In this document: piece by piece, positions 16,582-21,710 of the stretch
Numbering within the stretch: the stretch's first letter is position 1
How the letters are laid out: the number at the start of each line of letters is the position of its first letter
Origin: Anaerolineales bacterium
GTDB taxonomy: Bacteria; Chloroflexota; Anaerolineae; Anaerolineales; Villigracilaceae
DNA: 59,453 nt
NCBI GenBank assembly: GCA_016789365.1
Contig: JAEURH010000005.1
Location: forward strand, 1 to 59,453
Direction of reading: 5' to 3'
Program-made: the position numbers and the translations under genes
Notes under the pieces: generated by a model
What the model saw: the letters and a program-made list of their open reading frames with translations, nothing else
What the model was told of the DNA's origin: nothing
Databases searched by the model: none

Positions 16582-18315
16582 TTATTTTTTATTTGACTTT
16601 ATCATCTGCCTTGCAGTTTGTAATAACTCGTGAGCAGAACGCAATGTACCTTCACCCACTTCACCAAGCATTTGAGAAAGTTCAAGCAAACGGGCTTCGC
16701 CTTCTAATGTTTCAACGCGAGTGAGTGTTCTTCCTTTATCAACCAATTTTTGCACTTGATAATGTTGGTCGCCAAACACTGCCAGTTGTGGAAGATGTGT
16801 GACGCAAAAAACTTGATGTGTGCGTGAGAGATTCCAAAGTTTTTGACCCACCACCATGCCCACACGTCCGCCAATACCCTGGTCAATTTCATCAAAAATT
16901 AAAGCAGGAACTTCGTCTGCACGAGCCATTACATTTTTTAATCCCAACATCAAACGAGATGTTTCACCACCCGATGCAATTTTTGCAAGTGGTTTGAGTC
17001 CTTCACCGGGGTTTGGGGCAACGAGAAATTCGACGCGGTCGAATCCGTTATGGTCAAATGCGAGGCGGGTTTCTCCAAGTGGTAAACCGTTGGGGTCAGG
17101 TTTGGTTTGGAAGTCCACGCCAAATTGAGCAGAAGCCATCTTCAAATCATCGAGTTCAATTTCAATGCCTTTGCTCATTTCAGTGGCGGCTTTTTTACGT
17201 TTATCAGAAAGCGTGCTGGCTTGTTTACAAAGTTTTTCTAAAAGTTTTGCTTCGCTCATTTCCAATTCAGTGATTCTATCTGCCGCGCCTGTGATAGTTT
17301 CAAGTTGTTTGCGAGCATCTTCACCATAAGCAATGACGTTCGGAATACTGCCACCATATTTGCGCGTGAGTGAGTGAATCAAATCCAAGCGTTCTTCTAC
17401 TTGGTCTAAGCGTTTTGGATTAAATTCAATTTCATCGAGATAATTTCTTAAGTTGTGAATGATGTCTGAAATCGCATCTAACGCGCCTTCGGCTTGGTTC
17501 GCCAATTCAGTTTGAGATTCATCTACTTTTGCGAGTGCGGCTAAGGCTTGCGCCGCCTGACCCAACAAATCTGTTGCGGCGGGAGTTTCAGGTGAGCCTT
17601 CTTCTAAAATCGCAATCGCTTCTTGTGCATTTTGCGCCAGCGATTCGGCATTTGCAAGTCGGTCACGTTCTTTTTTTAATTCATCTTCTTCGCCTGCTTT
17701 TAATTTTGCGGCTTCAATTTCTTCGGCTTGATACGTCAGCATTTCAATGCGACGGTCTGCATCGGCTTGCGCTTTTTTCAAATCCGATAATTCTCGGCGT
17801 AAATCTAATAACTTATGATAACTCTCGCGATATTCAGTCAATGGTTTTGAAACTTCGGCATAACGGTCTAATAAGCCTAAATGAGCGCGCGGGTCAAGCA
17901 ATGACAAATGTTCTGCTTGACCATGAATATCTATCAGCAAAGCCCCAATTTCCTTAAGCAGACCCACGTTCACGGTCCGCCCATTGATGCGGGCTACACT
18001 TCGTCCCTCTTTACGGACTTCACGCATCAGCACAACATAATCGGGATTATCCATCAAATCTTCACGTTTAAGGACTTCAAGCACCGCCTCTTTTTCTGCG
18101 CCTTTGAGTTGGAACACACCCTCAACAAATGCCGCATCTGAATCTGACCTGACAAAGGTTACATCTGCCTTGCCGCCGATTAACATCACGACAGCATCGA
18201 GGATGATTGATTTACCCGCGCCTGTTTCACCTGTCAGGATGATTAATCCATTCCCGAAACGTAAATCTAATTTGTCTATGATTGCAAAATTTTGGATGTG
18301 AAGTTCGGTAAGCAT
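16582..18315 (-). CDS. recN: DNA repair ATPase RecN
   Basis: 577 residues from the ATG at 18315 (MLTELHIQNFAIIDKLDLRF), the normal RecN start. An SMC-like ATPase: Walker A GETGAGKSIILDAV (about residues 29-42), two central coiled-coil arms, the ABC signature region ASGGETSRLML and Walker B LIFDEIDQGIGGRVG, then VFCVTHLPQLA. RecN is cohesin-like and acts early in double-strand break repair. It follows the zinc-finger membrane protein gene by 2 bp, so the two form an operon. Confidence 0.95.
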   Translation of the reverse strand: MLTELHIQNFAIIDKLDLRFGNGLIILTGETGAGKSIILDAVVMLIGGKADVTFVRSDSDAAFVEGVFQLKGAEKEAVLEVLKREDLMDNPDYVVLMREVRKEGRSVARINGRTVNVGLLKEIGALLIDIHGQAEHLSLLDPRAHLGLLDRYAEVSKPLTEYRESYHKLLDLRRELSDLKKAQADADRRIEMLTYQAEEIEAAKLKAGEEDELKKERDRLANAESLAQNAQEAIAILEEGSPETPAATDLLGQAAQALAALAKVDESQTELANQAEGALDAISDIIHNLRNYLDEIEFNPKRLDQVEERLDLIHSLTRKYGGSIPNVIAYGEDARKQLETITGAADRITELEMSEAKLLEKLCKQASTLSDKRKKAATEMSKGIEIELDDLKMASAQFGVDFQTKPDPNGLPLGETRLAFDHNGFDRVEFLVAPNPGEGLKPLAKIASGGETSRLMLGLKNVMARADEVPALIFDEIDQGIGGRVGMVVGQKLWNLSRTHQVFCVTHLPQLAVFGDQHYQVQKLVDKGRTLTRVETLEGEARLLELSQMLGEVGEGTLRSAHELLQTARQMIKSNKK

Positions 18316-18317
18316 AG

Positions 18318-18830
18318 TTAAAGTTGAATCCCTGAAATGCGAGTGTAAACGGTTGGCGTAACAATAACTGCATAAATAATGATTGCAATAGCGACAAACC
18401 AATTACCAAAGAAAAACATAACAATCGCTATCGGAATTGCACCTAGCACAACGCCTGTGGCACAAGCATAGAATAATGCTTTAGAACGGCGTTTGTTTAA
18501 CGCCCGCAAAGTAATATTTGAAATGAACACGCCTGCGCCTCTGCCAATAATTGCCGCGAGGAAAAATATAAAAAAGCCAATAAAACTTGCCACAATGCCA
18601 ACGAGAATGCTGGCAATTAATGACAAGATGAAAGTAATCCCAAACCCAATTAAGTAGTCGTACCAAAGGGCGGTATCAAATTTCTTTTTGCGTTGATTAA
18701 CACAATCTTTGCACATGTAGCCAGTTGGCGTGCCAACGGCACAAGATGTGCAAATATAACGGTCACAGTTTTTGCAACGCAAACTTGTTTCACGGGTTGG
18801 ATGAGCGTAACAGTAAGTTGTTTCTGTCAT
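18318..18830 (-). CDS. B-box-type zinc-finger membrane protein
   Basis: 170 residues from MTETTYCYAHPTRET. The N-terminal 45 residues form a B-box-like double zinc site: CYAHPTRETSLRC, then CDRYICTSCAV and GYMCKDCVNQRKKK. At least three transmembrane segments follow (about 55-85, 95-120 and 130-160). Proteins with a B-box finger fused to a membrane domain are common in Chloroflexota and Actinobacteria; function unknown. It sits immediately upstream of recN in the same operon. Confidence 0.7.
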   Translation of the reverse strand: MTETTYCYAHPTRETSLRCKNCDRYICTSCAVGTPTGYMCKDCVNQRKKKFDTALWYDYLIGFGITFILSLIASILVGIVASFIGFFIFFLAAIIGRGAGVFISNITLRALNKRRSKALFYACATGVVLGAIPIAIVMFFFGNWFVAIAIIIYAVIVTPTVYTRISGIQL

Positions 18831-18850
18831 CTTAAAATTCCTAAAAACAT

Positions 18851-18949
18851 TAAACACGAAGGACACAAAGTACACAAAGGAAAATCTTGGAAAGATTTTT
18901 TATTGTGAGCCTCTTCCAACTTAGTGACCTTCGTGTCCTTTGTGTTTAA
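18851..18949. repeat. Family C dispersed inverted repeat
   Basis: Arms TAAACACGAAGGACACAAAG and the inverse ACCTTCGTGTCCTTTGTGTT. A related copy lies at 58557-58641. It occupies the gap between nadK and the zinc-finger gene. Confidence 0.7.
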
Positions 18950-18955
18950 ACATCT

Positions 18956-19813
18956 CTACCTCGGCAATCCTAAAGAATTTTCTTTCATGTGTAATGTGAT
19001 GTTACGATAAAAATAACCTGCATCTCCAAAACGGACGAATTGCGCGGTCACATCAGCGGCGGTGATTAATACATGGTCATCTTCCATTAAATTAATCGGT
19101 GACTGACCATCCACACTCAAAACTGTATTTTCACTTTGCACTTCTATATTCACAGACGAACCTTCCGAAAGCACAACGGCTCTATCTACCGAAAGATGCG
19201 CCGCAAGTGGCACGAGCAAAATATTTCGCAACTCCGGCGGAAGGATAGGTCCACCTGCCGCAAGCGCATAAGCAGTTGACCCCGTAGCAGTCGAGGCGAT
19301 TAATCCATCAGCCATATAACTCGTCAGGCGATGATTATCTACCGTAGCAGTTAATCGCACTGGGCGTAAATTTTGTCCACGACCCACAACCACTTCATTT
19401 AATGCAATCCAATTGCCAAGCGATTCGCCCGCACGAAGATGTTCCGCTTTCAACAACATACGGTTTTCAATCCATGCTTCGCCGTTTAATAATTTATCAA
19501 AGTGCATTCGCCAATCGTTGCGGTCAATTTGAATCAGAAAACCAATTCTCCCCAAGTTGACTCCTAAAATCGGCACATTGCTCGGCGCACACAAATGGCA
19601 CGCCCGCAAAACACTGCCATCGCCACCAGCAATGATTAACATATCAAAATCACCACGCCGCACCCGCTTACGCAACTCTTCATCATAAATTGAACCCCAC
19701 GGCGCTTCGATACCTTTTTCTTGCAAATAAGCAGACATCACTTCGGCTTCAGACATGGCTTCTGCCATTTTCGGATAAGCCGTGACAACCGGGCGTTGCG
19801 GGATGAAGGACAT
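18956..19813 (-). CDS. nadK: NAD kinase
   Basis: 285 residues. The signature GGDGSVLRA is near residue 61, followed by VNLGRIGFL and the NAD-binding ADGLIASTATGSTAYALAAG. This makes NADP from NAD and ATP or polyphosphate. The ATG at 19813 is preceded at 8 nt by TATAAT (19827-19822 on the minus strand) with no Shine-Dalgarno, so a leaderless mRNA is expected. It is the only NAD kinase in the window. Confidence 0.93.
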   Translation of the reverse strand: MSFIPQRPVVTAYPKMAEAMSEAEVMSAYLQEKGIEAPWGSIYDEELRKRVRRGDFDMLIIAGGDGSVLRACHLCAPSNVPILGVNLGRIGFLIQIDRNDWRMHFDKLLNGEAWIENRMLLKAEHLRAGESLGNWIALNEVVVGRGQNLRPVRLTATVDNHRLTSYMADGLIASTATGSTAYALAAGGPILPPELRNILLVPLAAHLSVDRAVVLSEGSSVNIEVQSENTVLSVDGQSPINLMEDDHVLITAADVTAQFVRFGDAGYFYRNITLHMKENSLGLPR

Positions 19814-19821
19814 AGTCAGCA

Positions 19822-19827
19822 ATTATA
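19822..19827 (-). promoter_or_regulatory. -10 box of a predicted leaderless nadK promoter
   Basis: TATAAT on the minus strand, 8 nt before the nadK ATG. It lies at the edge of a repeat (GTACACGAGTACACAGGTAAAC). Confidence 0.45.
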
Positions 19828-19867: not shown

Positions 19868-20380
19868 TTACACGAGGCTTTCTTCACACAGATTTTGATA
19901 ACCGCATCTTTTACATCGGGACGGCTGTTGATGTGACCTTGCGACCTCTTTCTTAAAGTCATCCTCGCGCATGTCGGCAATCAACTCGATTAATGCAGTT
20001 TCTAATTCTTTGGTATAACGAATCGAAAAATCTTTATTTTCGTAATGGATGATTCCATACGGCGGGCGTTTGCCATAATTTTTTTCGACTAATAAACAAT
20101 ATGAAGCCAATTGAAAAATATGCGAGTCATATGGTGCTTCAGGTGCATTACCCGATTTGACTTCAACAGGAATAATTTGGTTATCTTTTTGAATTAAATA
20201 ATCTGGTTTGCCTGTTAATCCGAGCGCGGCATAAAACAAAGGTTTCTCCACTTTGCCCCAAGCGCGTGTGTCGGTGTAAATGACTTGTCCGCCGGGCAAG
20301 CCTGTCGCCCTTTGCTGGCGATTCGATTGCCAGAAAAAGAATAAAGCCAGTAAAAAAAGGAAAAGAATCAGATAGGACAT
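19868..20380 (-). CDS. Cas4-like nuclease, C-terminal half with N-terminal membrane anchor
   Basis: 170 residues. Residues 2-17 are a transmembrane helix (YLILFLFLLALFFFW). The rest is the C-terminal part of a Cas4/RecB-type PD-(D/E)xK nuclease: catalytic Asp in GKPDYLI (about residue 57), IPVEVKSG (ExK), QLASYCLLVE (QxxxY motif) and the Cys cluster CKRCGYQNLC, which in Cas4 gives three of four ligands for an iron-sulfur cluster. The first Cys and the motif-I His are absent here but present in the neighbouring gene at 20446. No CRISPR array or other cas gene is visible. Confidence 0.75.
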   Translation of the reverse strand: MSYLILFLFLLALFFFWQSNRQQRATGLPGGQVIYTDTRAWGKVEKPLFYAALGLTGKPDYLIQKDNQIIPVEVKSGNAPEAPYDSHIFQLASYCLLVEKNYGKRPPYGIIHYENKDFSIRYTKELETALIELIADMREDDFKKEVARSHQQPSRCKRCGYQNLCEESLV

Positions 20381-20392
20381 AAATTATATATT

Positions 20393-20445
20393 TTGACCAC
20401 TGACGGCTGACCGCCGTCTATGGTCTGCGGTCAGCGGTCTGTAAT
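20393..20445. repeat. Inverted repeat between the two Cas4-like halves
   Basis: GACGGCTGACCGCCGTC followed by GGTCTGCGGTCAGCGGTCTG. Self-complementary and repeat-like, it fills the gap of 65 bp between the two half-genes. Related wording occurs at 11907 (GACCGTAGACGATTGACGGT). Confidence 0.55.
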
Positions 20446-20682
20446 TCATAACCATTGATAAGCCAAATAAGCCACAAGCAAAATAGTCGCTATCAGAAGC
20501 AGAATCAAGCCGAAAGTCCGCGTAAGAGAGGCGGCTAGCACTTTACGTCCGTGCTTGTGATGCAAATCCGTTCCAGCCGCAAGTTCAGTTTGATTCTCAG
20601 AAGGTATTCCTGTCTTTCGATACCACCACGCGCGACGGCAGTACAGGTAATTTCCGATTTCTGAGGAGCGGATGGGTCGCAT
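20446..20682 (-). CDS. Cas4-like nuclease, N-terminal half with C-terminal membrane anchor
   Basis: 78 residues from MRPIRSSEIG. It matches the N-terminus of Cas4-type nucleases: IRSSEIGNYLYCRRAWWY supplies the isolated first cluster Cys, and AAGTDLHHKHG the motif-I His. The chain ends in a transmembrane helix (FGLILLLIATILLVAYLAY). The C-terminal half is the next gene on the same strand. Together they contain every Cas4 motif once, with a two-helix membrane hairpin at the split. The ATG is preceded at 6 nt by TATACT and lacks a Shine-Dalgarno. Confidence 0.7.
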   Translation of the reverse strand: MRPIRSSEIGNYLYCRRAWWYRKTGIPSENQTELAAGTDLHHKHGRKVLAASLTRTFGLILLLIATILLVAYLAYQWL

Positions 20683-21470: not shown

Positions 21471-21710
21471 TTACATAAACAATTCCATTTTCTTTTTTCG
21501 AGAAAGAGCCTTAATGGCTCTTTCTCTTTTCATAGCAGTTTTTTTATCAGGTTGTTCTTCAACATAAACTAATTTCACGGGTAATCTCATCCGTGTATAT
21601 CTTGCCCCCAAGCCTTTGTTATGTTGAATTAATCGCTTTTCAATGTTAACTGTCCAGCCAGTGTATAAAGTACCGTCTGCACATTCGAGGATGTAGCAAA
21701 AACAAGCCAT
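21471..21710 (-). CDS. GIY-YIG domain protein (UPF0213/YhbQ-like)
   Basis: 79 residues, the size of stand-alone UPF0213 proteins. It has CYILECADGTLYTGWT (the GIY-YIG strands), the Arg in NIEKRLIQHN and the Glu region KRERAIKALSRKKK. SLX1/UvrC-type nuclease fold; the in vivo role of this subfamily is poorly known. Only 5 bp separate its ORF from the stop codon of the upstream TyrA-like gene, so they are co-transcribed. Confidence 0.88.
   Translation of the reverse strand: MACFCYILECADGTLYTGWTVNIEKRLIQHNKGLGARYTRMRLPVKLVYVEEQPDKKTAMKRERAIKALSRKKKMELFM

Follow-up and report, generated by a model that had tools for sequence, protein, structure and literature searches.

Which of the known Cas4-type enzymes does the gene pair described here resemble? 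CRISPR-associated Cas4 (TIGR00372 / PF01930) has the cluster cysteines, the histidine, the PD-ExK core and the QxxxY motif in the same order as the pair; unlike it, the pair comprises two chains with two membrane helices, and neither a Cas1 in its assembly nor an array in the window was found. Moreover, Cas4 is a single polypeptide, whereas here there are two genes, unlinked in some genomes, and a single ORF is found in 3 of 47 genomes of one class, that of genome G326. AddB/RecB-type and UvrD-fused Cas4-like nucleases are PD-ExK enzymes as well, some of them with an iron-sulfur cluster. They are part of helicases or fused to them (PMC5704561), while neither half of our pair carries a helicase domain (Pfam, NCBIfam). 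Solo-Cas4 lies outside CRISPR loci, is chromosomal and is largely vertical in its inheritance (Hudaiberdiev et al., 2017; PMC5704561), in which it is like the pair; the study further reports that many Chloroflexi have a solo-Cas4 that is monophyletic, a group to which the C-half described here may belong, and states that all solo-Cas4 members have four conserved cysteines and are probably active nucleases. The main text of that study, however, does not use the words 'split' and 'transmembrane', and among the literature matches listed, no title or abstract opening describes a split or membrane-anchored Cas4. Our pair sits outside CRISPR and mobile contexts, as solo-Cas4 does, but as two chains.

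The window, that is, the whole stretch of 59,453 nucleotides analysed here, comes from an Anaerolineales bacterium. From sequence comparison, we consider it likely that two of its genes together encode one membrane-anchored Cas4-type nuclease, a two-chain, inner-membrane variant of solo-Cas4 whose cluster and active site would form only in the complex. In agreement with the sequence-only reading, an ORF with the first cysteine, the histidine and a terminal helix is followed by one with the remaining motifs. The features of the locus are as follows.

20446-20682, minus strand: N-half gene, 78 aa, with YLYCRRAWWY holding the first cluster cysteine (C15), the motif-I G-x3-H (H41) and a C-terminal transmembrane helix
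20461-20517, minus strand: predicted transmembrane helix of the N-half, residues 56-74 (hydropathy)
20383-20445: dispersed palindromic repeat of about 50 bp in the intergenic gap (inverted repeat I11)
19868-20380, minus strand: C-half gene, 170 aa, with an N-terminal transmembrane helix, GKPDYLI, VEVKSG, QxxxY and CxxC-x5-C
20324-20380, minus strand: predicted transmembrane helix of the C-half, residues 1-19 (hydropathy)
18956-19822, minus strand: nadK (NAD kinase; Pfam), the next gene downstream and a conserved neighbour in the window's order
18318-18875, minus strand: gene for a small, membrane-like protein whose B-box-like zinc finger is weak (below the Pfam cut-off), conserved in the gene string
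16582-18402, minus strand: recN-type SMC-like ATPase (Pfam SMC_N, neighbour counts), the end of the conserved gene string; its true start is probably downstream of the listed TTG

Each Cas4 motif had been proposed to occur once across the two genes, and the family models bear this out. Against NCBIfam TIGR00372, the C-half scores 74.9 bits (cut-off 65) over model positions 57-179 of 180, and the N-half 26 bits (E 6.7e-6), below this cut-off, over positions 2-46; because the two stretches cover the model without overlap, the halves together amount to one Cas4 with nothing doubled. Likewise, the C-half passes the cut-off of Pfam Cas_Cas4 (PF01930; 1.6e-11), while the N-half remains below it (E 0.008). 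Among solved structures, a profile of the pair finds only the Cas4 chains 8d3l and 4r5q up to E = 1, matching first the N-part and then the C-part in the right order and skipping the membrane part; the E values of 7e-4 and 6e-3 make these weak matches, and the N-part by itself does not reach significance. All 39 N-halves compared, which come from several classes, have C15, W19, G37 and H41, and all 28 C-halves of the window's order have D60, E73, K75, Q90, Y94, C156, C159 and C165. The four cysteines of an iron-sulfur module are therefore present across two chains, one on the N-half (39/39) and three on the C-half (28/28), and so are the motif-I histidine, the PD-ExK residues and QxxxY, which are altered in part of one other class. 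Read by eye, C-halves of other classes mostly have D, E and K intact, with a change of D to E in G155. C-halves of the f32 family (L221, L246, L247) have the three cysteines, with most of the PD-ExK residues gone.

A mean hydropathy of at least 1.6 over 19 residues marks nearly all N-halves (52 of 53) and all C-halves (54 of 54); in the ten genomes for which positions were recorded, the peak falls on the C-terminal end in the N-half and on residues 1-19 in the C-half. Within 15 residues of the helix, lysines and arginines number 163 on the soluble side versus 7 on the tail side in N-halves (those of 100 aa or more being left out), and 159 versus 0 in C-halves. By the positive-inside rule, the positively charged flank of a membrane helix lies on the cytosolic side; since the charges are on the soluble side of both helices, the soluble parts of both halves are predicted to face the cytosol.

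How widespread is the split? Counting the window's genome and 60 relatives, 54 of 61 carry the C-half and 53 the N-half; the sole mismatch is G008, where the C-half lies about 70 bp from a contig end. As 7 of the 61 have neither half, the pair is dispensable. Profiles of the two halves were each run on 301 Chloroflexota genomes, and a natural fused protein served as the query in one class. Both halves occur in 88 genomes, the C-half only in 3, the N-half only in 1 and neither in 209. In these counts, C-positive genomes (91) are those with at least 76 bits, plus two f32 members with lower scores (G134, G284) whose match starts close to the membrane helix; the raw count of 119 of 301 for the C-half profile includes ordinary Cas4. 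N-half matches of about 22-37 bits in families f40, f32 and f56 were retained because they lie directly before a C-half, whereas eight genomes were excluded whose sole match is below 25 bits in other, mostly long ORFs (G145, G185, G209, G271, G282, G313, G336, G350). Five genomes were added from the fused-protein search, two with a fused form and three with a divergent N-half. Relatives with one half only, which according to the sequence-only reading would have spoken against it, are thus rare: the C-half lies at a contig end in G284 and G320 and in G288 looks broken, without CxxC-x5-C, while the N-only genome, G120, is 82% complete. In a scan of public genome contigs, the best 80 of 385 confirmed stretches all carry Chloroflexota titles. 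Taken from these comparisons, the split arrangement is old, phylum-wide and nearly always paired.

Pairing is maintained over very different spacings. In 51 of the 54 genomes with a C-half, a single retrieved locus holds both halves; the two genes share 4 bp in 10 of these 51, lie at least 400 bp apart in 17 and are intermediate in the remainder. Nine of the 17 long gaps were inspected: a HEAT-like gene of some 210 aa occupies eight, and the ninth, in G004, has another ORF; the HEAT-like gene is tandem in G009, and only a shorter ORF is present in G003. It lies between the halves in part of the genus, for example in L083 (3559-4876) and L089 (3358-4033), and L135 holds what appears to be its decayed remnant. 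Among the 80 named loci from public contigs, 77 have a same-strand N-half upstream, at gaps of -4 to 1334 bp; of the three exceptions, L138 and L160 end soon upstream, and L164 has no N-half within 5 kb. In L098 (G017; a genome of 2 contigs, 78% completeness), the N-half has a frame shift inside the membrane helix, perhaps a sequencing error. In 16 genomes searched with the N-half profile, the N-half is present in all 16, in nine of them away from the C-half (G154, G051, G337, G317, G208, G095, G342, G264, G330). G264 is a single contig of 3.3 Mb with the halves 2.8 Mb apart (C1:3051906 versus 244712), and in G342 they are 0.89 Mb apart on one contig (C1:1076029 versus 188710); the other seven have them on different draft contigs, and the sequence retrieved upstream of their C-half holds no N-half. 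No common context of the unlinked halves was seen in the translations read, single cases standing beside rarA-, sbcD/sbcC- and dnaX-like genes. The retention of both genes after their parting is, at the level of sequence, the best evidence of a shared function.

Natural fusions point in the same direction. The sequence-only reading had suggested looking for a fused version in which two helices are inserted between motif I and the PD-ExK core, and three exist, in G326, G080 and G356 (330, 353 and 379 aa), each with the N-part, two hydrophobic helices and the C-part in this order, though all three have lost the motif-I histidine and the aspartate. Four further genomes of the class have the two halves in one frame, interrupted by one or two stops. 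The fused forms sit among the split ones in a tree of 65 rows, so that fusion looks derived, having arisen once or twice. The same tree separates 15 ordinary solo-Cas4 rows from the split family by one branch with a support of 98/97 (bootstrap not fully settled). These rows stem from 18 loci of the phylum, of which 3 were dropped from the tree because frame or match was unclear. Ordinary solo-Cas4 has a hydropathy of at most 1.05 ahead of the core in the 17 loci measured, and carries the first cysteine and G-x3-H on one chain in 14 of 18, the pattern not being found in the other four.

Could the two ORFs instead be the debris of a normal Cas4, broken by a recent frameshift or repeat insertion? 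The dispersed repeat in this genome's gap, which the sequence-only reading had suspected as the cause of the split, invites the idea; it has 26 matches in its own genome, including itself, with one copy within the window. However, overlapping or abutting genes in relatives leave no space for a repeat, so it cannot be what caused the split, and the split itself is conserved across the phylum, which is not what a fresh frameshift pseudogene would look like. Both halves are furthermore under purifying selection, with within-genus median dN/dS values well below 1 (N-half, 0.185 over 325 pairs; C-half, 0.091 over 115 pairs), and the 4-bp overlaps in 10 of 51 linked pairs also speak against decay. 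Given this conservation and selection, we regard the remnant explanation as refuted and its probability as negligible. A production of one fused polypeptide by programmed frameshifting or stop read-through would suit the many pairs that share 4 bp or continue in frame past a single stop, but gaps reach from -4 to more than 1300 bp, some with whole genes in between, and the nine genomes with unlinked halves imply that fusion is not a requirement; we hold it to be very improbable. By sequence, the case for two chains working as one enzyme draws on the split motifs, the membrane-like helices with their charge pattern, the near-obligate pairing, the natural fusions and the purifying selection.

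Rivals concerning function carry somewhat more weight. In 30 genomes of G326's class (33 have a match; G196, G284 and G320 were left out), the N-half cysteine and the three C-half cysteines are kept in all 30, whereas 13 lack the histidine and 13 have an altered D, E or K; 12 genomes show both, the exceptions being G361 and G142, and the three fused forms are in the affected group. It hints that the iron-sulfur part can persist where the nuclease is lost, and speaks for a reading in which the pair descends from Cas4 but serves as a sensor or scaffold with an iron-sulfur cluster at the membrane, rather than as a nuclease. Such a role is nonetheless unlikely for the pair as a whole, as the active site is invariant in the window's order (28/28 C-halves), H41 is kept in 39 of 39 N-halves, and the C-halves of other classes mostly retain D, E and K. 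The joint decay of the active site, striking in a naive table (Fisher p 1.9e-6), was set aside, as only 2 tree-independent pairs fall on supported branches, too few for a test. A rival on role alone is defence, with a tethered nuclease attacking phage or transforming DNA as it comes in at the inner membrane, instead of repairing the cell's own. The membrane anchor and the soluble parts predicted inside would fit, as would the matches of the C-half to PADLOC models, best to Cas4 (1.8e-21) and more weakly to DruK and the candidate PDC-S01. Against it stand one HEAT-like and one translin-like neighbour with no PADLOC match, and viral contigs, where 95 pattern stretches yielded no confirmed relative, so that viral carriage was rejected. 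Nor is there a Cas1 in the pair's own assembly (86% complete). A defence role is thus possible, if doubtful. Together with the lack of an array-like repeat in the window (crude 20-mer scan), the absence of Cas1 also led us to reject a CRISPR link, in line with the sequence-only reading, which had noted no array or cas gene nearby; across relatives, Cas1 was not found in 33 of 54 genomes with a C-half (lists compared by hand).

How, then, might the two-chain nuclease work? One Cas4-type enzyme would be made in two parts, N-terminal and C-terminal, from the two genes. Each part would have an inner-membrane helix at its broken end, and packing of these helices into a hairpin would join the cytosolic parts. 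One cysteine from the N-half and three from the C-half would make up the iron-sulfur site, and the N-half histidine with the C-half aspartate, glutamate, lysine and QxxxY the active site, both formed only in the two-chain complex. The enzyme would be chromosomal and independent of CRISPR, and most likely act on DNA ends where the membrane faces the cytosol, trimming or cutting them in the service of repair or DNA surveillance. Physical assembly, iron-sulfur binding, nuclease activity and the role of the pair are what we infer from the comparisons above. On the scale of the phylum, we think it reasonably probable that this is an obligate heterodimeric Cas4, with cluster and active site divided between two membrane proteins, which in some lineages has become a nuclease-dead iron-sulfur membrane protein. 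As the C-half alone passes the NCBI cut-off, it is likely to be annotated as 'Cas4', with the partner carrying the first cysteine and the histidine being missed, and biochemistry on such a solo-Cas4 C-half alone could fail or mislead. With the pair at hand, the function of solo-Cas4 becomes testable, its membrane location being a strong clue, and the pair marks a natural split point in the Cas4 fold.

A role in repair is a lead rather than a result, the processing of DNA ends being inferred from the nadK-recN neighbours in the order. Of the named loci with room downstream, 75 of 78 have nadK there, 73 of 75 the gene for the zinc-finger-like protein and 71 of 73 recN; on the upstream side of the C-half, 33 of 74 have a HEAT-like gene. 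In 20 loci from other families of the window's order, nadK is present in 17 of 20, recN in 14 of 19 and an upstream translin-like gene in 15 of 19. Since the nadK context is gone in other classes (1/15 and 0/21 loci, with flanks too short for recN), repair can only be a lead; nadK is also found beside recN in bacteria without Cas4. A replacement of AddAB by the pair was considered and rejected: AddB_N is matched in 26 of 301 genomes (20 over the cut-off), and its distribution shows no opposite pattern (14 of 88 pair-bearing genomes versus 12 of 213 others). The translin-like gene precedes the N-half in several other families (L061, L064, L077, L082, L237); of three such proteins compared with Pfam, one is above the cut-off and two are below. 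In L061, a DUF3467 protein (Pfam) stands before the translin-like gene, and related genes are found in 8 loci of one cluster. Upstream of the locus, at 21471-21710 of the window, lies a small GIY-YIG protein that recurs nearby in the genus.
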